Part shown: positions 9,659 to 31,071 of the stretch, in pieces
Numbering within the stretch: the first letter of the stretch is position 1
Layout: each line of letters opens with the position of its first letter
Assembly: GCA_020444265.1 (NCBI GenBank)
Contig: JAHLLH010000001.1
Span: forward strand, 558,001 to 622,000
Length of the DNA stretch: 64,000 nt
Direction: 5' to 3'
DNA from: a bacterium
GTDB taxonomy: Bacteria > Electryoneota > Electryoneia > Electryoneales > Electryoneaceae
The notes under the pieces: model-generated
Databases searched by the model: none
What the model saw: only the letters and a program-made list of their open reading frames with translations
Told to the model about the DNA's origin: nothing
Position numbers and translations under genes: made by a program

Positions 9659-9665
9659 GCCAACG

Positions 9666-11165: not shown

Positions 11166-12233
11166 TCAGCTCTTTTTCCATTCAGGCTGTTCCATCAAAT
11201 CGTCTAGCAATTCCTTGGACCGTTTTCCAAGTTGCTCCGGAAAAACCAAGTTTATCCGTACTAATAGATCCCCCACCTCGCCTGAGTCGTTGGCAATGCC
11301 TTTACCCTTCACGCGTAACATCTTTCCTTCGGGCAATCCAGCCGGGAGAGTAACCCTGACTATTCCTGTTGGAAGTGGGACACTGACCACGTCGCCTAGC
11401 AGCGCTTGTTTCAAATTGATCGAAAGTTGGTAGATCAGGTTGCTGCCATCGAGGTCAAAATCATCTTGTGGGATAACGTTTAAGGTGACATGCAGGTCAC
11501 CCGAAGGCCCCCCAAATGCCCCTTCACTACCCTCGCCCTTCAGTGTCAACGTCTGGCCTGCTTTTGAGCGCTTGGGGACTATAATTTCAACACGAGCACT
11601 GGCCCTGTTCAGAGAAGTGCCTGCGCAGTGCATACAAGGCTCCTTCGCAACACGACCTGTTCCCTCGCAGTTGCTGCAGGGAGCAAAAACTGTCTTCCCA
11701 TTCTTTGCAGACGGGATTTCACCCAGTCCATGACAAACAGTACACTGTCCCGCATCGTAGCCCGGTTTGACACCTCCGCCACCGCACACTTCACAGCGTA
11801 TGGCACGTGTCATTTTAATGGTTCGCCGAACGCCTGTAGCCAGTTCTATCGGGTTTACATCCAACGAAAGCCTGTGATCCTTACCTCGTTTCGGGGTACG
11901 GACAGCTCTATCAGGTGTTTCCCCGCCGAAACCAGCCCGAAAGACCTGCTTGAAGACATCTTTGAACGAAGCAGTACTTTTCCCCTTCGCATTCGATCTT
12001 GCCCGTGTCCTGATCTCTTCTTTCGTGTGGTATTCGAGACGATTAGCAGGATTGGAGAGGACTCGATATGCTTCGCTGATCCGCTTAAAACGCTCTTCAG
12101 CGACATGGTCTCCACGGTTGGTATCGGGGTGGTATTTTTTAGCAAGGCGGCGATACGCTTCACGAATTTCATCCGCTGACGCATCCGGTTGGACACCAAG
12201 TTCCGTGTAGTAGGCTTTCAGGTCGCTTTTCAC
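11166..12233 (-). CDS. dnaJ: DnaJ-family chaperone with zinc-finger domain
   Basis: A 355-residue Hsp40 protein. An N-terminal J domain contains HPD at residues 35-37. A cysteine-rich domain follows with four CxxCxGxG-type repeats (CEVCGGGG, CTVCHGLG, CSNCEGTG, CMHCAGTS), then C-terminal substrate-binding domains. It stimulates DnaK ATPase and binds unfolded clients. The segment between the J domain and the zinc fingers is short and not clearly Gly/Phe-rich, unlike classical DnaJ. The start is taken as the GTG at 12233, because the longer reading would begin within the T-run of the flgM terminator. It lies downstream of flgM; linkage to the flagellum may be only positional. No dnaK or grpE is in the window, so a paralogue may exist elsewhere. 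Confidence 0.88.
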   Translation of the reverse strand: MKSDLKAYYTELGVQPDASADEIREAYRRLAKKYHPDTNRGDHVAEERFKRISEAYRVLSNPANRLEYHTKEEIRTRARSNAKGKSTASFKDVFKQVFRAGFGGETPDRAVRTPKRGKDHRLSLDVNPIELATGVRRTIKMTRAIRCEVCGGGGVKPGYDAGQCTVCHGLGEIPSAKNGKTVFAPCSNCEGTGRVAKEPCMHCAGTSLNRASARVEIIVPKRSKAGQTLTLKGEGSEGAFGGPSGDLHVTLNVIPQDDFDLDGSNLIYQLSINLKQALLGDVVSVPLPTGIVRVTLPAGLPEGKMLRVKGKGIANDSGEVGDLLVRINLVFPEQLGKRSKELLDDLMEQPEWKKS

Positions 12234-12276
12234 CAGCCAGGTTCCAATCCAGCAAGACCAATTCTTCCAAACATAC

Positions 12277-12300
12277 AAAAAAGGGCCGTAGAACGGCCCT
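12277..12300 (-). terminator. Rho-independent terminator after flgM
   Basis: On the minus strand a perfect stem AGGGCCG / CGGCCCT (12282-12300, extendable by one A-T pair) is followed directly by a run of T (12277-12282). It lies 26 bases after the flgM stop and is the best intrinsic terminator in the window. It marks the end of the fliD-fliS-flgM unit. Confidence 0.88.
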
Positions 12301-15104: not shown

Positions 15105-15941
15105 TCAGCCAACGAGACCAGCTACGATTTGCGGGACCATGTTGGCCTGCGCAAGCATCGACACGCCAGTTTGCATCAGAATCTGCGCGCGAGTGAAGTT
15201 GCTCATCTCTTCGGCAATATCCGCATCGCGGATGGTTGATTCTGATGCCGTGGCATTCTCACGGCCAATCTGCAGGTTCAAGATTGTGTTCTGCAGACGC
15301 TCGACGTAGGCACCGATACGAGTCCGTTCTGTGTCCTTCGTGTCAATCGCAGTGTCGATCGAGGTGATCGCTGTCTGCGCATTGATCGTGTCGGTCAGAT
15401 CGAGACTCGAGATACCGAGTGCGCTGGACGTCATGTTCGCGAGCGTGACATAGTAATAGTCTTGGCCCGAGGTATTGTACGTTCCAATGTGGAACTTCAA
15501 GCCTGGGCTTCCACTCAGCGAACCATCCAACAGGTTAAGATTGTTGTAGTTCGTCGTCGACGCGATTCGAGTAATCTCACTCCGCAGCTGTTGGAACTCA
15601 ACATCGAGGGAGTTTCGATCGGTCGAAGTCAGCGCGCCGTTGGACGCCTGAACTGCCAGGGCGCGCATACGGACGAGCTTTTCGTCGATTACCGATAGTG
15701 CACCTTCGGCTGTCGCCATCAGGTTCACATTGTAGTTCGCGTTCCGCTCCGCTTCAGTCATTGAAGAAATCTGCGCGCGGAACCTCTCACTCACTGCCAG
15801 GCCAGCTGGATCATCCCAGCTATAGTTAATACGAAGACCTGAGGACAGGCGGGTAAGCGCCTGATCCAATTCGCCCTGCGTCCTCCAGATGTTACGCTGA
15901 GCGGTGAGCGAGAGCACGTTATGGTTGATCCGTGTGCTCAT
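15105..15941 (-). CDS. fliC: Flagellin (short, D0/D1 only)
   Basis: A 278-residue flagellin. The N-terminal D0/D1 helices are clear (TRINHNVLSLTAQRNI, LSSGLRINYSWDDPAGLAVSERFRAQI), as is the C-terminal D1/D0 (RIGAYVERLQNTILNLQIG, RDADIAEEMSNFTRAQILMQ). The centre is only about 40 residues, so surface domains D2/D3 are missing. Ser/Thr-rich stretches in the middle are possible O-glycosylation sites. The C-terminus ends NMVPQIVAGLVG instead of the common ALPQxVLxLL. A near-perfect Shine-Dalgarno (AAGGAGGTG, 15946-15954) precedes the ATG, fitting very high expression, and a sigma-28-type promoter lies at 15992-16018. The glycosyltransferase island is just upstream. Confidence 0.97.
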   Translation of the reverse strand: MSTRINHNVLSLTAQRNIWRTQGELDQALTRLSSGLRINYSWDDPAGLAVSERFRAQISSMTEAERNANYNVNLMATAEGALSVIDEKLVRMRALAVQASNGALTSTDRNSLDVEFQQLRSEITRIASTTNYNNLNLLDGSLSGSPGLKFHIGTYNTSGQDYYYVTLANMTSSALGISSLDLTDTINAQTAITSIDTAIDTKDTERTRIGAYVERLQNTILNLQIGRENATASESTIRDADIAEEMSNFTRAQILMQTGVSMLAQANMVPQIVAGLVG

Positions 15942-15991: not shown

Positions 15992-16018
15992 TTATCGGCG
16001 GATGGAAGGTGAACCTTG
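15992..16018 (-). promoter_or_regulatory. Sigma-28 (FliA) promoter of fliC
   Basis: On the minus strand CAAGGTTC (16018-16011), an 11-base spacer, and GCCGATAA (15999-15992). The -10 box is identical to the FliA consensus and the -35 box matches five of eight bases of TAAAGTTT. Transcription would start near 15985, leaving a ~44-base leader with a strong ribosome-binding site. A hairpin at 16043-16067, just upstream, may end transcription from the preceding unknown gene but lacks a T-run. Confidence 0.88.
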
Positions 16019-16135
16019 AGCGGCACTTGAGACATCGTGCAAGGAATGCCTCCTCATCGGAGCATCCTCAGACGCTAACTTCTTGAAATCAGTACATATT
16101 CGAAACGTCTGCAGCTTGTCAAAGAGCGGGTCTCT

Positions 16136-16537
16136 CTATCCGGATCGATCTACTCGAACACCGGTTTTTCCAGTTCCCAGAGCCCGAATACCCTCCATGA
16201 ACCTTCGTCCGCGCGTCACTTGAGCTTCATCCTCAATAACGCGTTTCTTTTGTGCACCCAAAGCGAGAAGAATACCACGGTCTAACTCCCTCAACCGCGT
16301 CCTGTCCTTATCGCTAATCCTGGGTAGTTTACCCCTGAGTTCATTTGCCATCTTCTGGCTAAACTCAGGCAGTTCCTTATCTTCCGGGAACCCCCAAAGC
16401 GCACAGAGTAATCTGCCACGTTCATCCATCGCAGCTTCATAAGCTGTGTGATGTTCGATCCTGGCCGCCTGTAAAGCCTCTTCACTTACACGTAGCAAGG
16501 CGCGGACGATGGATTCTTGGGGACGTGACTGGTTCAT
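16136..16537 (-). CDS. Unknown helical protein upstream of fliC (possible chaperone-like)
   Basis: I do not recognise this 133-residue protein. It is predicted largely helical and charged, with no signal peptide, membrane segment or cysteine cluster. The C-terminal part (ELDRGILLALGAQKKRVIEDE, then TRGRRFMEGIRAL) resembles the long amphipathic helix seen in FliT/FlgN-type export chaperones, which is only a loose resemblance. Its start overlaps the stop of the preceding unknown gene (ATGA), and it ends 118 bases before the fliC promoter. It is the last gene of the long run that begins at flgF. A flagellin chaperone or a filament-modification accessory factor are both possible. Confidence 0.6.
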   Translation of the reverse strand: MNQSRPQESIVRALLRVSEEALQAARIEHHTAYEAAMDERGRLLCALWGFPEDKELPEFSQKMANELRGKLPRISDKDRTRLRELDRGILLALGAQKKRVIEDEAQVTRGRRFMEGIRALGTGKTGVRVDRSG

Positions 16538-17145
16538 ACTGCCACACTGATCCCACGAAGAGATTCAACAACTCCCGTCCAATCTTCAAGCAAAGGATGA
16601 AGTTCATACTCAATCAGGTCTGCGACGAGAATAGTGTCACGATTGGTCTGAGCACTGATCAGTTCATCCAGAACTCTACTGATCTTCCGAGTGTTTTCTT
16701 CAAGTGTGCTGTCGCCGGTAACGACATCCGGCGCGCCGACCTGAAGCAGACTGGCTACACTGAGTGTTGTATTCAGCAACACCTGCATGCCATCCAGGCA
16801 GCGTGCGAAGATCTCATTCGCTTTCTCGAATGTGTCCATGCGGAACACTTCGACAGCACGGTCGAGCTCTGCCATCAATGCCTTTTGAAACTCTTCGATA
16901 CTGACCAGCGTCTCGTTGGCTAGATCACTCGCAAAACCAGTTTCCAGCGAGATGGACTTCAGGGACGCCAGGCTTCGAAGATGCTGTTCTCGCTCCCCGG
17001 TCACCTCCTGCTCATCCACAAAAACTCGCACAATGCGCTTTTTCGCGTCCAGAGTGCTGGAAACCAGCCCCACTACATCTGCCACAGTCTCCTGCCCTGC
17101 ATCGGGAAGAGTTGTTGTGACGCCATCGACGATGATTTCGGTCAT
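16534..17145 (-). CDS. Unknown flagellar-cluster protein
   Basis: A 203-residue cytoplasmic-looking protein that I cannot assign. The first ~70 residues (TEIIVDGVTTTLPDAGQETVADVVG, with KRIVRVFVDEQEV) suggest a small beta-grasp-like or ubiquitin-like fold; the rest is helical and acidic, with long amphipathic stretches. There is no signal peptide or membrane segment. It is joined by ATGA overlaps to the GT9-CgeB fusion upstream and to the 133-residue protein downstream, so the three are probably co-translated. Location suggests a role in modification or secretion of flagellin. Confidence 0.6.
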   Translation of the reverse strand: MTEIIVDGVTTTLPDAGQETVADVVGLVSSTLDAKKRIVRVFVDEQEVTGEREQHLRSLASLKSISLETGFASDLANETLVSIEEFQKALMAELDRAVEVFRMDTFEKANEIFARCLDGMQVLLNTTLSVASLLQVGAPDVVTGDSTLEENTRKISRVLDELISAQTNRDTILVADLIEYELHPLLEDWTGVVESLRGISVAV

Positions 17146-20141
17146 CGTTTTCCTCCTTCTCCCACCGGGACGATTGTCCTGTGGTGCTTCCGAACCTGTT
17201 CGACAATCGTTTTCAGTCGGTGGTTATAGGTGTGTTCGTTTTGAATCCGATTTGCTGCTTTTCGCGTACGCTTCACGGCTGGCGCGGGGTGCTTGATGAG
17301 GTATTCAACCAGGTTGGCTGCTTCATCCGCGTCCTCATAGACATTCACTTCATCCTCATCAAACAGCTCAAAAACAGCTTCTTGGCTGTCTGTAACAAGG
17401 ATGCCATCCGCGAGCGGTACATCAAACAAGCGTTGATTCACTGCCGTTGGCATCTGGAAGGATGTTGCATTGATATGCAGAGCACCACGGTAAACTGAGG
17501 CCAATTCGGTGTAATAATCCACGGGTGCGTGTACGACAACCCCATCTATCAATTGGTGCCAGCCATCGTCCCCATACAGTTCCAGCCCAAGGGGTCGTGC
17601 CGACGCAGCTAATTCAGCCCGCAAATTGCGAGTCGCAGTAAGAGCAACAGCTGAAGCATAGTGCAGGAGTTGGCCCAGACTCCATGAATCAATTGACAAC
17701 CCTTCTGCACGCGCAGCGCTTCGGACGGCTTCTGTCGGCTCAATCCGTCCCGCAAGTTGGAACGCCAGCGATCGTTCAAAGAGGGCCGACGGGTACTCAG
17801 TGACATGGGCCTTTTCACGCCACTCTGCAGAGGGGTATATCATTGAATTGGCAACCCAACGAACCTTTCCAGACCCTGTCCGGGGTCCATCCTGCGTGAA
17901 TCTTGAGGGGTCTGCAGCGAGCGGCAAGTACTCGACATGAGTAAAACCGTAGTCCCGCAATTCAGACAAGGTTGCCTTTTCCCACGTAAAGATGTAATCC
18001 TGTTCACTCGGGGGAAGCTTGTGGTCAAGCAGAATGAAACCGGGGCGATCCACATACCAGGAGACAACAGGAAGATCGATCCCATGCAGCAGTTCTGCAA
18101 GTTCACCATCCTGGTCAAAACCGAGGTGATTCACCGTTATAAGCAAATCCGCATCCACACTTGCGAGAAGCAGCCTCTCGATCACATCCCTACGCTGTTC
18201 AAAAGGAAGCGGGATAACCGTATGTCCAAGTGCCTCGCAAGCACGGATGATTTCGTCCTGCAGGTAATAACCGCTGACTGGCACGATGATTGTCAGGCGC
18301 TCTCCTCGCATCCTTGGACGACGGAGTTTGTTCAACAGGTTCTGTTTCGCGCTAAGTCCGTGGGCTGACCCGTTTGTCCCGTTACTTGAAGCAGGAATCA
18401 TGGTAGACGCTTTCGTCTGCCCCATATCGGTGCTAGCTACAGATTTTTCCTGCGCGGCTTTTGTCCACGTTAACGGTAAATGCTCGAGGACGAGGTTCAA
18501 ACTGGAAATGAGCTTATGGTAACCATCAAACAACACACTCAGCATCCCCAACTGATCACCCAATTCCGCGTCAGGAATGTTTTCCCGTTCGAAGCGGAAG
18601 AGGAGTAATAATGGACGCAGCAGTTTGTTCGAGAGATGGCGACGGGTCATCTCTTCGACTCCTCTTTCCACATCAGGTGCGAGAACAGCAAGCTGATCCG
18701 CGTTACGAACCGGATCCTTGGCAAGTTTGATCATTTTGGCCAGCACAACGCGCTTCTCATCCAGTGCATGAAGGAAACGCCCTAAATCCTCTCGAGGAGC
18801 CCCGATGAGAGCATGGAGGTTTCGCGCATCTGGTGCACCAAACAAGCTTGACGCACGCAATGCAACGAGCTCAGCAACCTCATTTGGCTCAACCATGCGC
18901 TGATCCAGATGAGCGGGTAAAAGCGATCGCAGAATCTCTTTCACGATCCCATCGACTTGTGGTACCTGCCTTGTCAGAGGTTGCTTCACCCACATACCCT
19001 GCGCATCAAAATCAGTCACCCAGCCATGTATACCACGCAGTAAATCATCACTCAGAACTTGGAGACCACCTTCTTCCAACATCTGTTCTGCAATTCCAGC
19101 AACTTGCGCAGGCTTGATCATCGAATGGCAGTTGTGATGGGGGCAATCTGTCTGAAAACTACATGGGAAACAGTCGATCCGTGGTTCAAGAATGACATGA
19201 CCACGTCCATAAGGACCTGTTTCGTCGGAAAGTGCACTTCCTAGCGTAATGACAAGGCAGCGAGTCTCAACAGCATTGGCTACATGCATGGTGCCGGTAT
19301 CATTGGTCACCAGCAGGTCGCAATTCTCCAGCAACGCAGCCAATCCCGGGATGTCACTCTTTCCGGCCAAGTTGATTGCCCCTTGACCAATCAGGGCGGC
19401 AACCTCCTCACAGACTTCCGCTTCTGTCTGGGTTCCCGTGAGTAGAATTCGAGCACCGGTATGTCGCACCAGCTGACGGCCTACCTCTGCGAATTTCGCT
19501 GCTTCCCACTGTTTGTCCTGCGCAGATGCGGAAACCTGGATGGCAACGAGGGGAACACGCTCACTTGGACTCGGTAGCATTTCTGCGATGCTATCTTTTG
19601 TCGCTCGCGGAACCTCAATCCTTGCCAGGGATTCACGCTCCTCACCCCCATCCCCTCCTGCGATACCTATTGAGAGGTCAGAGAGATGAATTGGGTTTGC
19701 GCCGCGATTGAGATTTCCTGCAAAGAAGTAACGTACCCAGCTGTTTTCGATACGGCGGTAACCTTGGTTATCCAAGGTCAATCCGGCAATAACGGGGCCC
19801 TTCATCAGACGAGTTAGCAGCGAACTGATGGTGCTGTGAGTGATGTTATAAATTGCTCCATAGTCAGCAGTCAGCAGAGGAGCAAGCTTCTTCTGAAGCT
19901 CCTGCGTGCTATTGCTCAACGAACGTCCACTCTGCCCCAGGCTGACCTGGGCTAGCTGTAGAGTATCGACAGTGATAACACGATCCACGGGAAGCAACTC
20001 TGCAACACCCTCGAAGCCACGTGTCACGATTAGATGAAGTTCGTGACCCGGATGCTGAGCACGGATTCTGCGCAGCATCGGAAGGGTCATCAGGATATCA
20101 CCCAACCTCGTCAGGTTCATGACGGCGATAGGACGAGTCAT
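17142..20141 (-). CDS. GT9-CgeB fusion glycosyltransferase
   Basis: A 999-residue cytoplasmic protein with two complete-looking GT-B modules. Residues 1-360 are a GT9 (heptosyltransferase-like) domain with NLTRLGDILMTLPML at the N-terminus and LVTNDTGTMHVANAV at the donor site, followed by a cysteine cluster (C-x2-C-x5-C-x4-C, CFPCSFQTDC then C). Residues ~360-610 are helical linker. Residues ~610-999 are a CgeB/DUF3880-type domain, with SWYVDRPG, YLPLAADPSRF and NQRLFDVPLADGILVTD. It may transfer two sugars in succession. It overlaps its neighbours at ATGA junctions on both sides. Flagellin glycosylation is inferred from context; donor and acceptor are unknown. Confidence 0.85.
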   Translation of the reverse strand: MTRPIAVMNLTRLGDILMTLPMLRRIRAQHPGHELHLIVTRGFEGVAELLPVDRVITVDTLQLAQVSLGQSGRSLSNSTQELQKKLAPLLTADYGAIYNITHSTISSLLTRLMKGPVIAGLTLDNQGYRRIENSWVRYFFAGNLNRGANPIHLSDLSIGIAGGDGGEERESLARIEVPRATKDSIAEMLPSPSERVPLVAIQVSASAQDKQWEAAKFAEVGRQLVRHTGARILLTGTQTEAEVCEEVAALIGQGAINLAGKSDIPGLAALLENCDLLVTNDTGTMHVANAVETRCLVITLGSALSDETGPYGRGHVILEPRIDCFPCSFQTDCPHHNCHSMIKPAQVAGIAEQMLEEGGLQVLSDDLLRGIHGWVTDFDAQGMWVKQPLTRQVPQVDGIVKEILRSLLPAHLDQRMVEPNEVAELVALRASSLFGAPDARNLHALIGAPREDLGRFLHALDEKRVVLAKMIKLAKDPVRNADQLAVLAPDVERGVEEMTRRHLSNKLLRPLLLLFRFERENIPDAELGDQLGMLSVLFDGYHKLISSLNLVLEHLPLTWTKAAQEKSVASTDMGQTKASTMIPASSNGTNGSAHGLSAKQNLLNKLRRPRMRGERLTIIVPVSGYYLQDEIIRACEALGHTVIPLPFEQRRDVIERLLLASVDADLLITVNHLGFDQDGELAELLHGIDLPVVSWYVDRPGFILLDHKLPPSEQDYIFTWEKATLSELRDYGFTHVEYLPLAADPSRFTQDGPRTGSGKVRWVANSMIYPSAEWREKAHVTEYPSALFERSLAFQLAGRIEPTEAVRSAARAEGLSIDSWSLGQLLHYASAVALTATRNLRAELAASARPLGLELYGDDGWHQLIDGVVVHAPVDYYTELASVYRGALHINATSFQMPTAVNQRLFDVPLADGILVTDSQEAVFELFDEDEVNVYEDADEAANLVEYLIKHPAPAVKRTRKAANRIQNEHTYNHRLKTIVEQVRKHHRTIVPVGEGGKR

Positions 20142-21688
20142 GGCATCACCTCCTCGTCCATTGTGCCCACAAACCGTGCCGTAGCGACCTTCCAGCGTTC
20201 CAGAAGTCCTCGTGCCTGGCGTTGCAGTGCGTCAAAACCTTGCACGTACAACGATTCTCGCTGGAGACGGTAGAGCAGGAGAAATGCAGCTATATCCCCT
20301 GCCTCGTGCTCGAGTTGAAACCATTCCGACTCGAGCTGTGCGAGTGTTTGTGAGTCATTATAACCTGATAGCCCTTCGATTCTCGCCACCATACGCGAAG
20401 CCAGCGCAAGGGCCTGCTCGATCACCTGTGCATCCGATTCAGAAATCGATCCGCACAGCTCATCGAGTCTGCTTCCCTTCTCCTGATCATTCAGAATGGC
20501 TTGCCAAACTGGGCGGAATGTTGCTGCAGGTTCACCGATTAGCCTGTTGCTACCAACACGATAAATCTCTTTCAGGTCGAGGCAACCATCTTCTGCGAAG
20601 CAGGTGTGAAGCAGTCTGAACTGGCCACGAGTCGACGGAAGATGCTCTTCCTCAACACCTAGCTGAACGAGAGCTGCGTTCTCAACTGCTTCAATAGGAA
20701 TGGTCTTTCCACAGCTGCACTGCGCGCAAGGTGTCGTTTCAGGACAGGGATGTGTGTCGGCCAAGGTTTCAAGAATACAATGGCCATCCGCACACGGTGC
20801 AGTGTCTTGTGGGCGTGCCATCGCAAGAAATACCGAAACCGTTTTTGTCCCCACGGCAGCGGCAACATGCAATGGACCAGTATCATTGGTCACCAGCAGA
20901 TCCACCGCTTGCAAAAGTGCGGGAAGTTGCGCCAGCCTCGTCTTGGCGGCAAGATTGTTCGGACGGCGTTTAGTTCCCTCTGCAATCACATCACAAAGTT
21001 CTATCTCACCCGGTCCTCCAACCAGTACGACTGAAACACCCTTGGCAGAAAGAGCATCCACCAGGCTGGTATAGGAAGTTGCAGGCCACTGCCGCAAGGG
21101 GTGGTTCGCCCCTGGATGAATAGCAACAATGGGCCGCGGCAAGGAGTCCAGCAGCGACTGAAATTCGAAATCTAGAGTTTCCGGGTTCAATCGAACTGGG
21201 ATCGCTCCCTTATTTACTCCTGCACCCAGACGATAAACATCCGCCAGGTTGAACGGATTGGTCGCACGGAAATGGAACATCGTAAAGAAATAGCGCATCC
21301 AGTTCCCACGAACCACAAACTCTCCATTAGGCGCACGATAACGTCCCAAGACATCTGCTTCCAGAAGCGAAACGAGGTGAGCGGAAAAGTCATCATGAGT
21401 CAGATTTACGACCCTATTAAATGATTTTCTGCGTAGCTCCTCAACCCATTGTTTCCATGCTTTCCCGGCTCGAAGCATCGATCCATTAGATTCAAGTAGA
21501 TCAGGCAAGAGGGAGGATTCATCGAAGGCAAGAATCTCATCCGCACCTAGCGATTTGGCGAAGTCAGTAAGGTTGCTGGTTACGAGCAGCGATACCCGCG
21601 TTCCAGGAATAGCCTTGAGGCCCTGGATTGCGGGTGTGCTTTGCACGAGATCGCCCATGCGGGCGAGATTAACCAGCAGTATGTTCAC
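20138..21688 (-). CDS. Glycosyltransferase family 9 with helical C-terminal domain
   Basis: A 516-residue protein. Residues 1-350 form a GT9 domain: NILLVNLARMGDLVQSTPA at the start, AIHPGANHPLRQWP in the second lobe and LVTNDTGPLHVAAAVG at the donor site. A cysteine-rich loop follows (CPETTPCAQCSC). The last ~150 residues are helical and resemble the linker of the GT9-CgeB fusion next door. The GTG at 21688 is preferred: AAAGGAG lies six bases upstream and the codon overlaps the previous stop as GTGA; an upstream ATG would add only eight residues. Substrate unknown; GT9 enzymes normally add heptose to LPS core, but position argues for flagellin. Confidence 0.87.
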   Translation of the reverse strand: MNILLVNLARMGDLVQSTPAIQGLKAIPGTRVSLLVTSNLTDFAKSLGADEILAFDESSLLPDLLESNGSMLRAGKAWKQWVEELRRKSFNRVVNLTHDDFSAHLVSLLEADVLGRYRAPNGEFVVRGNWMRYFFTMFHFRATNPFNLADVYRLGAGVNKGAIPVRLNPETLDFEFQSLLDSLPRPIVAIHPGANHPLRQWPATSYTSLVDALSAKGVSVVLVGGPGEIELCDVIAEGTKRRPNNLAAKTRLAQLPALLQAVDLLVTNDTGPLHVAAAVGTKTVSVFLAMARPQDTAPCADGHCILETLADTHPCPETTPCAQCSCGKTIPIEAVENAALVQLGVEEEHLPSTRGQFRLLHTCFAEDGCLDLKEIYRVGSNRLIGEPAATFRPVWQAILNDQEKGSRLDELCGSISESDAQVIEQALALASRMVARIEGLSGYNDSQTLAQLESEWFQLEHEAGDIAAFLLLYRLQRESLYVQGFDALQRQARGLLERWKVATARFVGTMDEEVMP

Positions 21689-23490
21689 ACAACTCCTTTT
21701 TCTTTTGCCCATTTCCCGAACTCATTCATCAGCAGGAATAGCGCTTCGGTCTCGCCCAGATCCCCCTCCTCGCGGAGAATTTTCTGGGCAATCCCATCCA
21801 GCGTCAGGACGTCATCCGGTTCGCCCATTCGCGCGAAGAAGGACGCTAATTCTTGATCGTCTCCAGCCTCTAGCACAAGTGCACGAACCATATTGGGATT
21901 CTCTTCAACAGCGGGAAATTCGCATTGGGCCGCGATCACACGAAGTGCCTCGTCCATCCTGTGACGGTACGTGTGATGCTCGAGCACCCGCCTCCGTGCC
22001 GCTACTGCGATTTCCTTTGCTTCGTCTGGATGAGCCAGGTAATAGTCGATGGCCTTCCGGCAGCTTTCGAGATCGTTGAAAGTGACCACCTCTTTGCCGG
22101 GTTCGAACAGTTCGGCTAGGAGACTTCGTTCATCAACAAGCTGAAACGCACCACACGAAGCGACTTCAAACGTTCTCGGATTAACAAAATCACCGTTGGG
22201 ATTCACCCCTTCGGTATAGGTCGAGGAATGCAGGTTCAGATTGATCCGAGTAGCATTGAAGATTCGGATAATCTCGTCCTGATCTACCCTTTCGCCATGT
22301 TTTTGCAAGTGAGCGGCCAGCAGACCAGCGCCTTCCCAGTCACTTCCCCACAATTTGAAATCGTAATCGGTTAGCCCACTGAAGAAGTGACGACGATTGA
22401 AATACCCCGCCCCCATGTGGCTGATATCTGAACCATAGATGTCCAGTTCAGAATCATTAAGTTCTAGTGATTTATGGACATCCGGATCGGCTGCCAGTGG
22501 CAAATAGTGCACGGCAGGCGCCCCAGCCTGGCGCAATCGCTTTTCGTAGCTGCCTTTCTGGATGTGGAAGAAGACATCGTAGAAGGGTGCGACTCGAACC
22601 CCGTATTCAAAGAGCTCGCCATCCTCAACAAACCAGAATGCAGTCGGAACACCAGCCCGCCTTAATTCTTCCAGCGCTTCCTGTGTGCCGGGGGACTGTG
22701 CCATGAAGAAGACAAGCTGTGCTTGCATCTCTTCGGCACGTGCCAGTACACTTTGACCGAGTAGATTGGTGTACTGTGCCAGTAGAGTTGTTCGGTGCTG
22801 TTGGTTGCTGGAAACGTTTTCCAGTACAGCCTTTGCCGGCGCGAAGGGGGTCGAATCAAAGAGTTCAGCACGATGACCGAGTTGCTTCAGCGCGCTTGTG
22901 ACATAGTGACCGATCGGAACACTGCCACCCAACAGCGCACCTACAACGAGGATTCGCAGTCCGGGGGGAACCAACCCCTTTTCCGACTTGCTGTTCTTCA
23001 CCTCGTCCAATGCGAACGGTGCATACACTCGAACCGAGGGCATCACCACGAGGCTTCCGTCCACCGTGACATCAGCCAGATTGCCTACATGAAGGGTGCA
23101 TCGTTCAAATAGCTTGCCCAGATCGCGGACCTGGATTGCTGCTGAAAACGCTTCGACCGATGGTTCGAGGATATGAATGGTGCGATTGGGCATCGCTTCG
23201 ATCAAGGCTTCTGCCAGATACCCCAACCCCATCCCTAACAGGTAGACTGGACTGTCACCCTCAGCTTGGCTCAAAAGCTTAGACGCCAGCGAACGAGCTT
23301 CTTTCTGCGGAGCATAGCGGCTGTGGACCGCTTGGCCATCACAGAGAAGTGTCGGGTTTCCATCCTTCGCCTGCTCAAGGACGAGATTCCCCAACGGGAG
23401 TGGTGCGGCAAACTGTTCGAACAGGTCGACGCGTCCAGCGTTTCTCAAAACATCCAGATTGCCTTGTAGCATGTCACCCAGCCCACTCAT
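21685..23490 (-). CDS. CgeB-type glycosyltransferase with Maf-like N-terminal region
   Basis: A 601-residue protein. Residues ~1-150 (NLVLEQAKDGNPTLL, HSRYAPQKEARSLA, YLLGMGLGYLAEALIE) look like the N-terminal Rossmann part of motility-accessory/DUF115 (Maf) proteins, which modify flagellin in other bacteria. This resemblance is by eye. Residues ~175-540 are a CgeB/DUF3880-type GT-B domain, with FWFVEDGELFEYG, YLPLAADPDVH, NPRTFEVASCGAFQLVDE and GKEVVTF. The C-terminal 60 residues are helical. It overlaps both neighbours by a few bases (ATGA at its start, GTGA at its end). A role in attaching or extending a flagellin glycan is inferred from context. Confidence 0.8.
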   Translation of the reverse strand: MSGLGDMLQGNLDVLRNAGRVDLFEQFAAPLPLGNLVLEQAKDGNPTLLCDGQAVHSRYAPQKEARSLASKLLSQAEGDSPVYLLGMGLGYLAEALIEAMPNRTIHILEPSVEAFSAAIQVRDLGKLFERCTLHVGNLADVTVDGSLVVMPSVRVYAPFALDEVKNSKSEKGLVPPGLRILVVGALLGGSVPIGHYVTSALKQLGHRAELFDSTPFAPAKAVLENVSSNQQHRTTLLAQYTNLLGQSVLARAEEMQAQLVFFMAQSPGTQEALEELRRAGVPTAFWFVEDGELFEYGVRVAPFYDVFFHIQKGSYEKRLRQAGAPAVHYLPLAADPDVHKSLELNDSELDIYGSDISHMGAGYFNRRHFFSGLTDYDFKLWGSDWEGAGLLAAHLQKHGERVDQDEIIRIFNATRINLNLHSSTYTEGVNPNGDFVNPRTFEVASCGAFQLVDERSLLAELFEPGKEVVTFNDLESCRKAIDYYLAHPDEAKEIAVAARRRVLEHHTYRHRMDEALRVIAAQCEFPAVEENPNMVRALVLEAGDDQELASFFARMGEPDDVLTLDGIAQKILREEGDLGETEALFLLMNEFGKWAKEKGVV

Positions 23491-25097
23491 CAGCTCCTCC
23501 CCGCTCCTGTTCCAGGCGATGGAATCCTTGCGGTGGTACGGCGGGAGCTTGTGCGCAAAGGGAACGACGATCCCTCCCGCGCCTGGGATCGATCCGGTTG
23601 GATCACATACCCCATCCTTGCACGCTGTTTCAGCATCGTTTCAGAATCGCGATCTTTGGGCTGGTTGAGATGGTAGCGTTGCCAGAGTGGCAAGGTGAAC
23701 TCGACTGCATTCCGCTCAACCAGAATACGATCAAGGTGTTCCATCGCTTCCAGGTTCGTCGGATCTTCACGCACAACATGCAGGAAGTGCTCAAACGCAG
23801 TCCACATGGTCACTGGAAGTATGGAACGATTAAAACCGGGTGTCATATCCTGTCCGACACCATAAAGCAGTTTTCCAAGTTCCGTATGAATATCTAGTGG
23901 GTCCGTCGACTCAAGACCGAGGAATCCAGCCGCACCCTTGCCATCGTTCTTGGAAAGTGCACGAGCAGCTTTGACCACGTTCATCATACTCGGTGATACT
24001 TCCGGAAAAGAACCATTTCCATTGCTGGGACTCGCCTTTTGCAACAAATCAGCGAGCAGGTCACGACGGAAGGGTTCAAGCCCCTCCTGCTGCTTGTAAA
24101 GTTCCTCTGCTGTATACTGACGAATCTGTTCCAGTTCGCCCCACTTCAACGAGGCCAGCATGATGCCCCAAAGCGCATCGGCCCGGCTCTCACGAGTGAA
24201 TCGTTCTTTTCTGACCCTCAAACGTTCCAGGTCATTCACAACCTGGTTCGCACGACGCCCAAGAGTGTGCTTTTCCATCACCAGGGTCGACCCGGCGTAC
24301 CCAATGTGTTCGGTCCGCGAGGGGTGATCCAGAAGGTTCTGTACGACGGCTTCGATGTTCGACTGATTAAAGGTCACCAGGGAATAGCCATCTGTGAAGA
24401 GCATCTCTTCACCACGAGCTTGCTCAGTCAGCACAACAGCACCGCAAGCCATCGCTTCGAACGTGCGCAAATTGATACCATCGAACAAAAGTTCGTTTAA
24501 AACAATCCTTGAGCGACGGTACAAATCTGCGACCTCGTTCGGACCAACAGATCGTGCCCCTCCACCATCGACAACGTGAACATCCGTGATCTGACGAAGC
24601 CGATGCAGGATCGCAGATCGTTTCGGCCTCAACTCCGAATCAATCGACCCAACAAAAAGAAGCGGAATATCTCGATCTGTTTCCCTCTTTGGCGGGTAAT
24701 AGATCTCTGGATCGGCAGACAGTGGAAGCCAACGAGCCCAACCAACACCCGCCACCGAAAGCGACCGCCACACTTCATGTTGATCGACCCATACTCGGTC
24801 AAATTGTGAGGCATAATGCCGTTGCCAGTACTCGTTGATCGGGGCGTCGACTGCGTAGAAGGCCATTGGTTGCGTGAAGCGTTCTATGCCACGAAAAAAG
24901 ACCCTACGGTTCAGGCTGTCAACCTGTAGAATGGCATCTGGCTTAAAACCTGATTCATCTACCGCTTCAAACAGGTCATCCCGATCAGGATCGAGCACGA
25001 TATTGTTGCTCGTATCAGGACCGACACGAAGCAGATCATCAACTCGATCTCGAATCGTATCACCGAAATAGGTATCGTTTAACAGAAGAAGCCTCAT
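23490..25097 (-). CDS. CgeB-type glycosyltransferase
   Basis: A 535-residue cytoplasmic protein. Residues 1-310 are a CgeB-like GT-B domain: YAVDAPINEYWQRHY, WLPLSADPEIYYPP, LLFVGSIDSELRPKR and the hallmark NLRTFEAMACGAVVLTEQ, then DGYSLVTF. Residues 310-490 are helical, TPR-like in part (GKLLYGVGQDMTPGF, EHFLHVVREDPTNLEAMEHL). The last ~35 residues are Ser/Arg/Pro-rich and look disordered. It shares ATGA overlaps with both neighbours. CgeB was first described in Bacillus spore-coat polysaccharide modification; here flagellin is the likelier target. Confidence 0.83.
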   Translation of the reverse strand: MRLLLLNDTYFGDTIRDRVDDLLRVGPDTSNNIVLDPDRDDLFEAVDESGFKPDAILQVDSLNRRVFFRGIERFTQPMAFYAVDAPINEYWQRHYASQFDRVWVDQHEVWRSLSVAGVGWARWLPLSADPEIYYPPKRETDRDIPLLFVGSIDSELRPKRSAILHRLRQITDVHVVDGGGARSVGPNEVADLYRRSRIVLNELLFDGINLRTFEAMACGAVVLTEQARGEEMLFTDGYSLVTFNQSNIEAVVQNLLDHPSRTEHIGYAGSTLVMEKHTLGRRANQVVNDLERLRVRKERFTRESRADALWGIMLASLKWGELEQIRQYTAEELYKQQEGLEPFRRDLLADLLQKASPSNGNGSFPEVSPSMMNVVKAARALSKNDGKGAAGFLGLESTDPLDIHTELGKLLYGVGQDMTPGFNRSILPVTMWTAFEHFLHVVREDPTNLEAMEHLDRILVERNAVEFTLPLWQRYHLNQPKDRDSETMLKQRARMGYVIQPDRSQAREGSSFPLRTSSRRTTARIPSPGTGAGRS

Positions 25098-25402
25098 GCC
25101 TCACCTCCCCCGCCGAGGGCGGCCTGTTCGCGCATCAGGTGACGGCTGTAGCGCCGACTGGCATATGGATAACCATCAGGACGGAAAGGCAGCCCACGCG
25201 CCACTCTTGTCCTCGCAGAAGGACGGCCTGGACGTTTTCCCTGCGGCAGTTCACTTGTGATGTAAACAGGTGAACGGTGCACAAAAACGCTGTATGGTGT
25301 TGTAGGAACTGCATAGACTCCGCGATACCCTGCAGGAACCTTTTCCTTGAGGGTCGACTGCTGAGGCTGCTCACCAAAGGTTCGTATCTGTTCACGCATC
25401 AT
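25094..25402 (-). CDS. Unknown small basic protein in the glycosyltransferase island
   Basis: A protein of about 102 residues that I do not recognise. It is strongly basic, rich in Arg, Pro and Tyr (GKRPGRPSARTRVARG, PDGYPYASRRYSRHL), and lacks a signal peptide or membrane helix. It is likely poorly ordered. A start at 25402 (tandem ATG ATG) has GGAG seven bases upstream; a longer reading runs back into the GT9 gene and is less likely. It overlaps its neighbours on both sides, which supports it being a real gene. Function unknown; it could tether island proteins or bind nucleic acid. Confidence 0.55.
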   Translation of the reverse strand: MMREQIRTFGEQPQQSTLKEKVPAGYRGVYAVPTTPYSVFVHRSPVYITSELPQGKRPGRPSARTRVARGLPFRPDGYPYASRRYSRHLMREQAALGGGGEA

Positions 25403-26861
25403 AACTTTTCTCCAACTTTGGCGTATTGCCACCGACCCACCCCAGGTAGCCGTTTGTTTCAAAAGCATGCACAATTCGCTTGATCCAGCGCTTCTCTTTA
25501 TCCCCCAACATCATCCAGCGCATGGATGCTTCATTTCCCACATCACTCAGGAGTGCTGCTGCCCCGCTTGCATTCCCCAACTGACCAGACCCCGCTTTGT
25601 GGGATTCCCCGGTCGGGACAGTGTCCGTCCGGATAAGGGACTCGAGGAGAGGGAGCCATCGTTGCCCTGCACCGAACTGAAGGCGCTTTTCGCTGGAGAC
25701 GTATCCGTACCGGATACCCAGAGATGAAGGTCTGGCCACCAACAAATCGAAGGCATTGAACTGATCGTCATCTTCGTTTACCTCTCTTCCTGGGTCGGCC
25801 AGTTTTACAGCCAATTCCGCGACCTGCTCCATCGACAATTCATTCGCATTCCCTACTGGATCATCTTCGTTCTGCTGCAAGGATCTTTTGTGAACCAACG
25901 CTACCGCACCACTACGATAAGGCCCTGTTTCAACTGGATTAGCCCCGCCAAAGAACAGGCCTAGCTGCCTTGCCCTGGTTGCCGCTGCAAGCTGCAATGT
26001 CCCCGTATCGCTCGAAATCAGCACATTGACCGCGTCAAGAATCGCGGGGAGCTCTTCAAAGCTTGTCTGCCCCACGAGATTGCGGATACGCCGATCCCCA
26101 TGCGGCAGGGCTTCCAGTATTTTCCATGCATCCGGTCTATCTGCTGGAGAACCGATGAGGTCCACTCGTTTTGCGCCACGTTTCAACAGGCTGTTCACCA
26201 ACTCGGCAAGCTTTTCCGCATGAAGTCGTCTTCCTGCCGCTCCAGCACCAATGTTTACAGCGTAAACGCTATCTGTGTCAGGAGTTCGAGCTTGCTCACC
26301 ACTATGTTTTGCAAAGGGTGTGCCCACATCTCTTCTGAGAGCCGGAGCAGACAGCGGATATCTGTCCGGTCCGTATGCCGCCCAAACTTCAACGAGATGC
26401 AACGGGTTCAATCGTCGATCAGACAAGGCATGATTCAGGTAGAGATGAGGGGCGGGCAATTGCTGTGCACCAAAAGGGCCATCATGCTGATCTGCATCGA
26501 TGGCCTTCGCGATCAAGGCAGGAACATCGCCTTGATTCAGGAGCAAAACCTTGTCTGCTACCGCCGCATCCATCCAGGGACCAGCCCATGCTTTCATTAC
26601 CTGAAGGTTTTCAGCTAACGAATGACTAGCATTGGGAAGAGGTGGACGAGACAGATCGACCCCGACTACTCTATCCACACCTTCAAGCATACGTGCTACC
26701 CGAACCACCCGCCGATCAACAACGAGTGTCAGTTCAGCAGCAGTTGATTGAAGATTCTGCAGTAATGGGGATGTTTGGATGAGGTCGCCAAAACGAGCGA
26801 GTTGGACGACCGTAAGACGGCCTCCAACTCCTCCTTCCTGATTCATCCGATGGACTTTCAT
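25392..26861 (-). CDS. Divergent glycosyltransferase family 9 protein
   Basis: A 489-residue GT9-like protein. The N-terminus has VVQLARFGDLIQTSPLLQNL, the second lobe AVNIGAGAAGRRL, and the donor-site region ISSDTGTLQLAAAT. In active GT9 enzymes the last motif is usually DTGxxHxA; here the His is Gln, so donor binding may be altered. The last ~100 residues are a variable tail with no recognised domain. Start ATG at 26861 forms a TGATG overlap with the preceding stop; an internal ATG at 26846 is an alternative. Likely acts in flagellin glycosylation, with or without catalytic activity. Confidence 0.8.
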   Translation of the reverse strand: MKVHRMNQEGGVGGRLTVVQLARFGDLIQTSPLLQNLQSTAAELTLVVDRRVVRVARMLEGVDRVVGVDLSRPPLPNASHSLAENLQVMKAWAGPWMDAAVADKVLLLNQGDVPALIAKAIDADQHDGPFGAQQLPAPHLYLNHALSDRRLNPLHLVEVWAAYGPDRYPLSAPALRRDVGTPFAKHSGEQARTPDTDSVYAVNIGAGAAGRRLHAEKLAELVNSLLKRGAKRVDLIGSPADRPDAWKILEALPHGDRRIRNLVGQTSFEELPAILDAVNVLISSDTGTLQLAAATRARQLGLFFGGANPVETGPYRSGAVALVHKRSLQQNEDDPVGNANELSMEQVAELAVKLADPGREVNEDDDQFNAFDLLVARPSSLGIRYGYVSSEKRLQFGAGQRWLPLLESLIRTDTVPTGESHKAGSGQLGNASGAAALLSDVGNEASMRWMMLGDKEKRWIKRIVHAFETNGYLGWVGGNTPKLEKSYDA

Positions 26862-29800
26862 CAGGAAACGCTCGGTTCACCGGGCAGGTGGGCAAGCAAC
26901 TCCCTGGCGCCCTTGTGCTCCGGTTTTGTTTCCAGGACACGCACAGCTTCTACCCTCGCGCGGTCTGTTTCACGTTTCCCAAACAGGACCGCTGCAAGGT
27001 GAAATCGCGCTTCAAAATCCTCGGGATGAATGGCGAGATAACGTTCCAGCGGTGGTTCAGCTTGGGACATCTCTTCTGCTTGAACCGCAGCTGCAACCAA
27101 CCCGACAATCGCAGGACGATAGCCGGGGTCAAGCTCGGAAGCTTTAACGAAGGAACCGAGGGCCTCTACCGTATTGCCCCGCCGAAGTTCGACATTCCCC
27201 TTCCCCAGGTGGCCACGCATATTCCCCGGATTCAGCTCGACAACCTTGCTGAAGATCTGGTCCGCTGCATCCAGCTCATCTTTCACAAGGTGGTACGTAC
27301 CGATACCTATCCAGGCACGTTCCGCGCTCGGGTCATCACTCACTGCTTTTCGGTAGCAGGAGTAAGCCTCATCCGTCTTGTTCAGGCGGAAGCGAGCGTC
27401 CCCAAGCAACGTCCAGTACATGACACGACTATGCACGTTTCCGTTGACCTGCTGACGCGCCTTGATAAGTGAATCTTCAGCAACATCAAAGCGGCCATCT
27501 TTGATCAACGTCTCCGCTTTAGAAAGGAGCTCATTTAGTGTGGGTGTCTTGTTGGAAGCGATATTATCAGACGACACATCTCCTGACCCACTGCTATGAG
27601 CGTTCATGTCGGACTCCTCCCCACGTTTGCGGGACGGTACAGATCGACCCATCGGGATAGTGCGTGACGTGCCTTCACTTTCTTCAACATTATACCCGTC
27701 AAGGCGTGTGTAGGCCTGAAGATCGGGTTTCACTTTCCCGATATGCAGGGTAGACCATTCATCTGGAACGGTCTCAAGCGAACGTTCACGAAGCAGTGTT
27801 CCACGTGCTGATGGTTCGTAGGCAACACGGCACCCCTTGTACCGAGCCCGGAGCGAAAGGTCCACGAAGCTGAATGCTTCAGGAACGTTCGGATCAAATC
27901 CACCGACACGATCCCACCAACTCCTTTTTAACAAAGCGAAATCCCCATCCACAGCCTGGAACAGGCGTCGCTGATAGAGGGACTTGAGTAGGGCCGTTTT
28001 TCCGTAATGCAGACGTACTGGCTCACCTTTTTGATTGAACGCAATGCCTGCATGGTCCACCTTTCCCGATTCCTGCTGAAGGAAACTACCGACAATGCCG
28101 GCGCTCTCCTCGGATGCAGCGTGAACCAGGGCTGGCAGCCATCCCGCATGTACTTCAACTGCGGTATCCAGCGTAACCAGATAGCGTCCCTGAGCTTTTT
28201 CTACTGCCAACGCAAGCTGGTCCGGCCTGACCAATTGCTGTTCGGTTTCGATCAGCAAAACACCAAGCCGATCCAATGCTGCACCCAACTCTTTCGCCAG
28301 GGTAGGTTCGAGGACGGCAATGACCTCGAAAGGAATGGTTTCGGTGTTTTCAATCACCGACTGCATAGTCCTAAGGAAGACATCCTGTTCTGTCTGACCT
28401 GTCAGTAGCACACTCGCAACCGGCTGGTTGTTGGTTCGTGCCTCTGCATAGACTTCCGCACGTCGTTCGTCGAGGATCACCTTCCTGCGCTTCCGCTCCT
28501 CTGGACTGCGGGACGGGATGGAACGATAAAAGGCTGGCATCTCTTCCAATAGGGCGAGGTCCGGTTGCAGATCATGGGCTCCCGCATCCGTTGCATCATG
28601 GTCAGGGTGAATTACCTCGCTCCAGGTGCGGTCCAACAGATTTTCTGCAATCAACGGCCACCAAGGGCGATTTCCCCGCCAGTTGGATGCTCTCGATCGA
28701 CGGCTAAGCACTGCTCGCTGAATCAGAAGATGTTCTGGGCGAATGGTAGGCTGTACACGGAGGTCCCCCATCGCCTTTGACACTTGACCGTTGTAGGCAG
28801 ACATATGGATCACCTCAGCGTCTGCAGAGGCGACGATCATACTTTGCAGGGTATCTTCAACAGGCTGGACACCTGCCGGTATGATCCATATCCAATCTGA
28901 AGTTGCCGCATCGAGAGCCAACGAAAGACGTCTGCCGGATGATGCACTGACTGGGACCTGGATTAAGGTGATTGTTTCTTGTTCTGGGACCGGAGATAGG
29001 ACTAGAGTGTTGTCAGCTACAACAATAATCTCGCACTGGTTTACCGCCTGGCGCCGTACCGCTGCTAATGTCGCTTCTACTGGCTTGCTATCCTCAAGCT
29101 GTACAATCAGCACGCTTACCTGCGGCTGCTCCTCATGGCCAGGTTGTAGCGAAGGAAGTTCTTCGACGATCAGCGCATCTGTCTTTGTCGTTTCTTGAGC
29201 TGATTCAATTGGTTTAACTGCCTCTTCTACCGGTGCGGTTTTGTTCGGTACGTTTGCATGGTCGGCTGCCTCATCTATCTGCAATAGGCGCGCTCCCAAT
29301 TCAATCCGGTGCTTGAGGGCGATAGTCGTCAGCTTGGTAGCATCTTCCGCTTCCACCGATTTCAGATAGAGCTGATTTGCCGTTTCTCGCTTTCCCATCT
29401 TTTCGAGGATAATTCCAGCTCGTGCCAGATATTCTACTGGCTGTCCTTCTGTCCAATCTGCCGTATCAGTCAGTCCGAAACTTTCGAGCTGCGAATTCAC
29501 GATATCCGCCGTACCCACATCCTGAGTCACCATACTCAGGTCTGCCAGGGCTAGTAAACCGTGTAACTGATTACCAATATCATCGCTCCATATCATACCG
29601 CGATCCAACACGGAGCGAGCACGCATCATGCCAGCATCAATGACCTGGGGGTCCTGCAGTGCCAGTCCTGCGAGGACAAGAGAGCGAGCGAGACGCAGTT
29701 CCAACTCCACAGGCTGCAATCGTGCCTGATCCCGTAGCACTCGAACGGTTCGGCGCAGCAGATCGTCAACGTCTTTCACCTCGACGGTACGCAACTTTAA

Positions 29801-30055
29801 CCCTGTAAACGCTTCGAGGGCGATAATTGTCTGGTAAGGATCATCCCAACCGCCATCACTATCACGTCCCTCAAGCAAGGTATTTGCAATCAGGAGGGCG
29901 GATTGAATTTCACCACGCTCAGCAAGGGTCGGCAGGGCAAATGATGTTGCAAGAATGGATGGAGTACCACTGGAATCGTCCACTACAAGGTGGTCCGAAC
30001 CAATCCTGCTGATCAGTTCACGCACATCATCCTGTACTATCTGCGAGTGGTTCAT
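26861..30055 (-). CDS. Large double GT2-like glycosyltransferase with C-terminal TPRs
   Basis: A 1064-residue protein. Residues 1-300 are helical repeats. A first GT2-like domain follows (QPQVSVLIVQLEDSKPVEATL, IIVVADNTLVLS, WIIPAGVQ) with no visible DxD. A second GT2-like domain (ASVLLTGQTEQDVFLRTMQSV, VTLDTAVEVHAGWL, AVDGDFALLKRSWWDRVGGFD) has LDTA where LDxD is expected. After a Ser/Gly-rich linker, about six TPR units occupy the last ~190 residues. TPRs fused to glycosyltransferases can present protein substrates, as in O-GlcNAc transferases. The ATG at 30055, eight bases after flgL with a GGTGGG ribosome site, is used; the longer frame runs into flgL. Confidence 0.78.
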   Translation of the reverse strand: MNHSQIVQDDVRELISRIGSDHLVVDDSSGTPSILATSFALPTLAERGEIQSALLIANTLLEGRDSDGGWDDPYQTIIALEAFTGLKLRTVEVKDVDDLLRRTVRVLRDQARLQPVELELRLARSLVLAGLALQDPQVIDAGMMRARSVLDRGMIWSDDIGNQLHGLLALADLSMVTQDVGTADIVNSQLESFGLTDTADWTEGQPVEYLARAGIILEKMGKRETANQLYLKSVEAEDATKLTTIALKHRIELGARLLQIDEAADHANVPNKTAPVEEAVKPIESAQETTKTDALIVEELPSLQPGHEEQPQVSVLIVQLEDSKPVEATLAAVRRQAVNQCEIIVVADNTLVLSPVPEQETITLIQVPVSASSGRRLSLALDAATSDWIWIIPAGVQPVEDTLQSMIVASADAEVIHMSAYNGQVSKAMGDLRVQPTIRPEHLLIQRAVLSRRSRASNWRGNRPWWPLIAENLLDRTWSEVIHPDHDATDAGAHDLQPDLALLEEMPAFYRSIPSRSPEERKRRKVILDERRAEVYAEARTNNQPVASVLLTGQTEQDVFLRTMQSVIENTETIPFEVIAVLEPTLAKELGAALDRLGVLLIETEQQLVRPDQLALAVEKAQGRYLVTLDTAVEVHAGWLPALVHAASEESAGIVGSFLQQESGKVDHAGIAFNQKGEPVRLHYGKTALLKSLYQRRLFQAVDGDFALLKRSWWDRVGGFDPNVPEAFSFVDLSLRARYKGCRVAYEPSARGTLLRERSLETVPDEWSTLHIGKVKPDLQAYTRLDGYNVEESEGTSRTIPMGRSVPSRKRGEESDMNAHSSGSGDVSSDNIASNKTPTLNELLSKAETLIKDGRFDVAEDSLIKARQQVNGNVHSRVMYWTLLGDARFRLNKTDEAYSCYRKAVSDDPSAERAWIGIGTYHLVKDELDAADQIFSKVVELNPGNMRGHLGKGNVELRRGNTVEALGSFVKASELDPGYRPAIVGLVAAAVQAEEMSQAEPPLERYLAIHPEDFEARFHLAAVLFGKRETDRARVEAVRVLETKPEHKGARELLAHLPGEPSVS

Positions 30056-30063
30056 GACCCACC

Positions 30064-31071
30064 TTATCCGATGAAGTTCACAAGACTTGACTGCAACACC
30101 TGACCACCGATAGACATCGCTTGCTGTAGTGCGATCATCTGCATCTGGTATTTCGATATCCATTCGGTCATATCTGCATCCTGGGTCTGGCTCATGTGTT
30201 CGTCTTCGAGGATTTTTAAGTCAATATGACGATCTTCGCTGTCCATGAGACGTCGAGTGGCACTCCCCACTTCTGTCAGTTTAGTGCGTACCCGTTCCGA
30301 TGCTTCATCCACCAAATCAAGCGTTTCTGCAATCACGGCGGCTGAATCATATTGGGGACGAGAATAAACTGGATCGCCAGGAACTGGTGGCACTGCGGGG
30401 GGATCCTGTTCGATGTCGTTTTCGATCCCATCTTCGAGGGCATCGCGAAGATTGATAAGCATCTGGAAGACATCGCCATCGTCTCCCGGATCACCAGTTT
30501 GGAATACTTCCGTTCCAAGGACGTTGATCTGGACCTGTTCACCGTCGGCCGATAGACGATAGATTTTTCCATCCATGTTATCGGGTAAGTCCTGGACGCC
30601 AATTGTCTCCCCCGTCGCAGGATCACTGATCGTTCGATAGGGTGAATCCTGAGTATTAAACCCACCGAAGATGTACTGATCCTCATGACGCGAGTTGGCG
30701 ATACTCACCATCTCGTGCATAATCTGGTCAATCCGTGTCGCGATGGACCCTCTATCCGCATCGGTAGTCGATCCGTTGGAAGCCTGTAGCGTAAGAGTCC
30801 TGACCTCTTTCAGCAGGTCGTCAGCCTGCGTAAGCTGAGTCTCAGCGTAACTGAGGCGAGCGATACCATCATCAATATTCTTCTGGTACTGATCACGTCG
30901 TTCGCCCTGGCTTCGGAGCAGCATGATCCTTCGCGCGGCGGCAGTATCATCGGATGGTTTTTCAATCTGCTTGCCCGTACTCAACACCTTCTGCGAAATG
31001 AATACATCATTTTGCAGACGATTGAGGTCAATCAGGAGCTGATTCTGTTTTATCTGGTTGGTGATCCTCAT
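30064..31071 (-). CDS. flgL: Hook-filament junction protein FlgL (HAP3)
   Basis: A 335-residue flagellin-like protein. The N-terminus MRITNQIKQNQLLIDLNRLQ and the GKQIEKPSDDTAAARRIM segment are typical of FlgL, as is the EDQYIFGGFNTQDSPY motif. The C-terminus (YQMQMIALQQAMSIGGQVLQSSLVNFIG) pairs with it to form the D0/D1 coiled coil. It is secreted and forms the second junction layer between hook and filament. It follows flgK by 15 bases and immediately precedes the glycosyltransferase island. Confidence 0.95.
   Translation of the reverse strand: MRITNQIKQNQLLIDLNRLQNDVFISQKVLSTGKQIEKPSDDTAAARRIMLLRSQGERRDQYQKNIDDGIARLSYAETQLTQADDLLKEVRTLTLQASNGSTTDADRGSIATRIDQIMHEMVSIANSRHEDQYIFGGFNTQDSPYRTISDPATGETIGVQDLPDNMDGKIYRLSADGEQVQINVLGTEVFQTGDPGDDGDVFQMLINLRDALEDGIENDIEQDPPAVPPVPGDPVYSRPQYDSAAVIAETLDLVDEASERVRTKLTEVGSATRRLMDSEDRHIDLKILEDEHMSQTQDADMTEWISKYQMQMIALQQAMSIGGQVLQSSLVNFIG

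Follow-up and report, generated by a model that had tools for sequence, protein, structure and literature searches.

A conserved glycosyltransferase island between flgL and fliC in Candidatus Electryoneota, with a core shared by other phyla, as a candidate system for flagellin glycosylation

Most of what is known about flagellin glycosylation comes from Pseudomonadota, Campylobacterota and Bacillota, and Maf, FlmG and a small number of further enzymes account for it. Flagellin is glycosylated in the cytoplasm before export both by Maf1 of Aeromonas caviae (PMC4065374) and by FlmG of Caulobacter (PMC7591256), and TibC, one of the TibC/AAH autotransporter heptosyltransferases, provides a precedent for a cytoplasmic heptosyltransferase that modifies protein (PMC4358343). 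Here we describe an island of glycosyltransferase-type genes from a bacterium belonging to Candidatus Electryoneota, which by analogy appears to fit this cytoplasmic, pre-export scheme with a different enzyme set. A preliminary description of the locus had proposed an undescribed modular system. In the open-access literature searched we found no paper linking CgeB/DUF3880 or GT9 with flagellin or flagella, and to that extent the proposal stands, but the system is not peculiar to this organism, as the island is phylum-wide and its core occurs in several phyla.

The window, which is the whole stretch of 64,000 nucleotides analysed, sits on a contig of 782 kb belonging to a genome of 4.33 Mb. Nine open reading frames were confirmed at 16136-30055, in frame on the minus strand and in an unbroken run starting at flgL (30064..31071, minus strand; assigned by phmmer/HMM synteny and a Flagellin_N match), with fliC on the other side. 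Six of the nine are glycosyltransferase-type genes, and the three small genes among them are the small basic protein and the two unknown genes described before. The run begins with a 1064-aa protein (26861..30055) with two GT2-like domains and C-terminal TPR, followed by GT9 protein a (25392..26861), the small basic protein (25094..25399, pI 10.7), CgeB-type glycosyltransferase 1 with an NLRTFEA motif (23490..25097), and MafCgeB (21685..23490). It continues with GT9 protein b, which is heptosyltransferase-II-like (20138..21712), GT9 protein c fused to CgeB-type domain 3 (17142..20141; VNQRLFD, of the type VNQR-F-D-V-P that is invariant in relatives), U203 (16534..17145), and the second small basic protein, U133 (16136..16537, pI 9.8). 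The glycosyltransferase genes were called by Pfam and motif checks, which bore out the earlier count for the six genes (three domains each of GT9 and CgeB type, two GT2-like): GT9 was found in three proteins (4.8e-14, 2.3e-29 and 4e-25), and three have the CgeB-type domain PF13524 (6e-22, 1.9e-43 and 3.9e-19), which DUF3880 accompanies in two of them. The 1064-aa protein matched GT2 and TPR, and its first GT2-like domain had no Pfam match. The start of the small basic gene is most probably 25399 rather than 25474, because the extra N-terminus is not shared by relatives.

The junctions from flgL onward measure +8, -1, -8, -4, -1, -28, -4, -4 and -4 bp, i.e. from an 8 bp gap to a 28 bp overlap, in agreement with the near-universal overlaps and the direct continuation from flgL reported earlier; 194 bp then separate the last gene from fliC (15105..15941, minus strand), which encodes a short flagellin of 278 aa, the presumed substrate. 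Within the island neither terminator-like sites (15, versus 13.1±4.5 in shuffled sequence) nor promoter-like sites (7, versus 9.8±3.3) were in excess. Ahead of fliC a sigma-28-like promoter is predicted from the sequence (TCAAGGTT-N12-GCCGATAA; 15992..16019, minus strand), on the basis of the sigma-28 consensus. The GC content of the island genes (0.52-0.57) matches that of the window (0.52) and thus gives no hint of recent import. No membrane segment was found in any island protein (the maximum 19-residue Kyte-Doolittle value was 1.68, and the hydrophobic stretches were too short), and no nucleotide-sugar genes lie inside the island. A DnaJ-like gene immediately follows the fliD-fliS run (11166-12278, minus strand).

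A search of related genomes for the same gene order found flgL-island-fliC in 13 additional Electryoneota genomes, that is, in all where one stretch spans both ends. The order within the phylum is (GT2/TPR) - GT9 - (CgeB) - MafCgeB - (GT9) - GT9 - CgeB - U203 - fliC - fliD - fliS, in which the bracketed genes are variable. The GT9-CgeB fusion of the window corresponds to two separate genes in most other Electryoneota, and neither the small basic gene nor U133 extends beyond the window's family. Because order and content are kept across the phylum, we take the island to be beyond chance. The nearest named relative that carries it whole is Candidatus Electryonea clarkiae (JAVCCM010000108.1), of the same family; relatives of the same GTDB phylum were deposited by their submitters as, for example, Calditrichaeota, LCP-89 and Zixibacteria. 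Elsewhere in the phylum, family f4 (loci L051-L054 and L057) has a gene of ~610 aa between two flagellin copies, and in two relatives (L146, G000:C16:367 kb; L148, G001) a second gene of CgeB type was seen away from flagella, with a ~258-aa upstream neighbour that is conserved.

MafCgeB combines a weakly Maf-N-like N-terminus, DUF3880 with a CgeB GT-B catalytic domain, and a helical C-terminus. Its predicted structure (pLDDT 90.9) has a GT-B core at residues 173-526, and the best solved matches of the model are retaining GT4 enzymes, with BshA aligned at Z 26.8 and 3.3 A over 322 residues. Alignment A1 (20 rows) shows no variation at D434 or E442, and a 33-row alignment shows none at D434; the two residues have the spacing of the EX7E pair of GT4 enzymes. 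PF13524 and DUF3880 are shared with the CgeB/DUF3880 proteins of the Bacillus subtilis spore surface, whereas the island is set apart from these by its own motifs (NPRTFE; VNQRxFDVP), an added N-terminal domain and its flagellar context. The modules called Maf-like in the preliminary description were traced to the N-terminal part of this one protein and do not extend beyond it: residues 81-133 match PF20157 (Maf_flag10_N) marginally, with 24.0 bits where the cut-off is 23.5, and the N-terminus matches Magnetospirillum Maf (PDB 5mu5) with E 0.012 over 53 residues. The Maf/MptE-like catalytic domain PF01973 had no match above cut-off in the whole genome, and none in the island; because this domain is absent, the island is not a Maf system. 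Its likeness to the Maf enzymes (A. caviae Maf1, PMC4065374; Magnetospirillum Maf, PDB 5mu5) thus lies in the cytoplasmic setting, the tie to flagellin (for MafCgeB, by gene context) and the weak N-terminal similarity, whereas the MptE-like catalytic domain of Maf is replaced in MafCgeB by a CgeB/GT4-like GT-B domain.

All three PF01075 domains score above cut-off and, apart from one substitution in protein a, carry the GD Asp and the D(T/S)GxxH motif, which places them in the GT9 family. The catalytic Asp and DTGxxH are retained in 81-82 of 82 cases and in 84-85 of 86; in the window's family GT9 protein a retains the Asp and DTG, with the His of DTGxxH changed to Gln. The GT9 proteins match ADP-heptose heptosyltransferase II (PDB 1psw), and homology with the LPS heptosyltransferases WaaC/WaaF (PDB 1psw, 3tov) is detectable, both motifs being common to the two groups; the island proteins are, however, longer, score under the NCBIfam equivalog cut-offs, and are flagellin-linked rather than LPS-linked. 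GT9 membership alone fixes no sugar. Heptose is a possible one, and the ADP-heptose gene rfaE (domain I) scores above cut-off in the genome, which shows only that the donor may be made. The sugar could conceivably also be a nonulosonic acid, given a NeuB-family gene elsewhere in the genome, but there are no nonulosonic-acid genes in the island. In TibC/AAH (PMC4358343) the substrate is an autotransporter, whereas this island has three GT9 domains plus CgeB enzymes, flagellar genes as neighbours, and no autotransporter gene in or beside it.

The 1064-aa protein does contain two GT2-like copies, but the usual metal-binding DxD motif expected of such domains is missing from both in the window (IIPAG; LDTAVEV), where relatives have LNNDT or LNSDT; since DxD is missing, the protein of the window may by now act as a scaffold or have weak enzymatic activity. 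With FlmG of Caulobacter (PMC7591256) the island shares a modular, cytoplasmic type of flagellin glycosylation (a predicted role on the side of the island), TPR repeats and a GT-B enzyme. FlmG, however, joins an N-terminal TPR and a C-terminal GT-B in one protein, an architecture that was not found in the island, whose only TPR protein is GT2-like, not universal, and has its TPR at the C-terminus.

U203, a protein of 203 aa whose gene is one of the two left as unknown in the first description, proved to be among the best-conserved parts of the island. It has no family match in Pfam or NCBIfam, and Pfam over all 32 members gave no consistent family, so that judged from sequence U203 is a new conserved accessory family. 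Its predicted structure (pLDDT 95.9) consists of a beta-grasp domain (residues 1-71) and four long helices forming a bundle (72-203), on which the conserved polar residues R102, D170, D176, Y180 and E181 are placed. A weak ThiS-like match of one member (E 0.045) fits the predicted beta-grasp. The Nitrospirota relatives comprise the helical half only (profile comparison probability 98.5%, E 1.9e-15). Foldseek against the PDB returned 545 matches with E up to 10, none under 0.001, and the VIA fold matches, with Z up to 14.5, were to four-helix bundles that are designed or unrelated; we read this as a common arrangement. FliS was not among the fold matches listed, and hhalign of U203 and U133 against FliS and FlgN gave probabilities of up to 1.1%, although the two may still share a fold with these chaperones. 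Family f8 retains U203 beside relatives of other flagellar genes with little or no flagellin (L143 10090-10731; L145 1090-1593), possibly as a remnant or in a second role.

A single-sequence scan of genome contigs with the 999-aa protein returned no relative, whereas a MafCgeB alignment scanned against 84,980 species genomes yielded 338 relatives that were confirmed; the best 80 were retained, so that the counts lean to close relatives; 20 of these loci were assigned to Electryoneota by synteny or record and set aside, leaving 60 from other phyla. Among these 60 (from the best 80 of 338) MafCgeB is directly followed by GT9 in 56, and a U203 relative comes next in 37 of the 52 with room for it. 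This core of MafCgeB, GT9 and U203 recurs in Nitrospirota, Desulfobacterota/Myxococcota, Latescibacterota and, partly, Nitrospinota, where MafCgeB-GT9 mostly lacks U203 and lies away from flagellar genes, though the genomes have flagellin; in Cloacimonadota MafCgeB alone was found. A separate CgeB with the VNQRxFDVP motif also recurs in other phyla. The MafCgeB tree groups largely by phylum (19 label changes versus 35.8 when shuffled), which indicates that vertical inheritance was common and would be compatible with an ancient hitch-hiking, in which the genes kept their place through block inheritance of the flagellar operon while serving unrelated functions. We regard this as highly improbable, because elsewhere the core stays together in differing flagellar settings (flgL-fliC, downstream of fliS, beside MotAB, beside flgB/C), for which block inheritance alone is insufficient.

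Flagellar genes were found within 10 kb in 32 of the 60 other-phylum loci (again from the best 80 of 338), and flagellin-family proteins are encoded in 22/22 other-phylum carrier genomes tested, most of which were picked because the fetched stretch held no flagellin. On a complete Nitrospirota chromosome (CP070632.1) one same-strand run reads flgK-flgL-fliW-fliC-fliD-fliS-GT2/TPR-...-CgeB3-MafCgeB-GT9-U203-MotA-MotB, with ~20 kb of same-strand genes from fliS to CgeB3. In the Nitrospirota flagellar run (L153 8689-18990; L069, CP070632.1) the stretch from fliS to the core also contains an asparagine-synthase-like and a sulfotransferase-like gene (both recognised by eye) and a second FliS-like gene; these bacteria may make a more elaborate glycan. 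When the flagellin domain was counted as PF00669, which also takes in FlgL, 40 of 61 genomes had both U203 and the domain, 2 had U203 alone, 4 the domain alone and 15 neither (Fisher 6e-9, a value inflated by shared ancestry); for the other phyla alone the corresponding counts were 5/0/3/14 (p = 0.002). The genome of the window has two more flagellins, in tandem with a MerR-like ORF between them (L035 6271-7110 and 7835-8692; G000:C9 ~721-724 kb), 150 kb from the island, and no such glycosylation genes lie alongside these.

The heptosyltransferase resemblance of the GT9 proteins, and an exopolysaccharide/O-antigen-type cluster (Wzy_C, Bac_transf) at 479-11105 on the plus strand, convergent with the flagellar cluster, would suit an LPS or exopolysaccharide operon that came to lie within the flagellar cluster by chance, with GT9 extending the core oligosaccharide. 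We consider such an origin quite unlikely: the island keeps its flgL-fliC position throughout the phylum, and contains no flippase, polymerase or membrane-anchored enzyme (by Pfam and hydrophobicity); flagellin is encoded in all of the 22 other-phylum carriers tested, and flagellin-family genes are present in 40/42 U203 genomes. In relatives the genes are not found mainly at LPS or capsule loci, given the flgL-fliC placement in the 13 genomes and the window and the 32 of 60 other-phylum loci near flagellar genes.

It is also conceivable, if unlikely, that another exported flagellar part (FlgL, FlgK, FliD or the hook), or several such parts, are glycosylated rather than mainly flagellin, as the 8 bp gap puts the block translationally close to flgL, whose flgK-flgL run it continues, while fliC seems to own a separate promoter, and as the Nitrospirota copies adjoin MotA/MotB. 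Against this, in 34 of 42 genomes no more than 3 kb separate U203 from a flagellin, the two are neighbours also in the other-phylum genomes G053 and G055, and no other exported subunit comes near flagellin in abundance. In some cases (G053) U203 is found beside flagellin without the core enzymes, which suggests flagellin as its partner. At the other-phylum locus L138 (8282-10407) a 298-aa U203 relative adjoins a 918-aa flagellin-domain protein, the core enzymes being missing.

Taken together, computation supports the gene order and conservation, the enzyme fold, the GT9 active-site motifs, the absence of membrane segments and the co-occurrence with flagellin, and we consider it probable that the island serves the stepwise O-glycosylation of flagellin in the cytoplasm, ahead of export, by which a short glycan would be built up. 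We infer flagellin to be the acceptor, and likewise the sugar, the linkage and the order of transfer. Nascent flagellin would be held by U203, as an adaptor presenting it to the enzymes, and perhaps also by the TPR protein. MafCgeB, with its Maf-N-like recognition domain and retaining GT4-like GT-B fold, would place the first sugar on Ser/Thr in the exposed loop of the short flagellin, at about residues 140-205 in the FliC of the window, and the GT9 enzymes, as relatives of the ADP-heptose heptosyltransferases, together with the other CgeB domains would extend it with further sugars. FliS would then take the completed subunit to the flagellar export gate.

More tentatively, and at slightly under even likelihood, we suggest that this machinery unlike Maf and FlmG (Maf-N-like/CgeB, GT9 and a beta-grasp/four-helix adaptor) could be the standard means of filament decoration in Electryoneota, Nitrospirota, Nitrospinota and several Desulfobacterota/Myxococcota lineages, building on flagellins of very small size a glycan of several sugars that perhaps includes heptose. 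Entire phyla of bacteria from the environment, most of them uncultured, here share another enzyme set, along with a conserved adaptor-like protein lacking a family name. If the proposed role is right, this would offer an enzyme set for in vitro tests, would allow hundreds of unknown genes to be annotated, and would give a handle on how glycosyltransferases choose flagellin.
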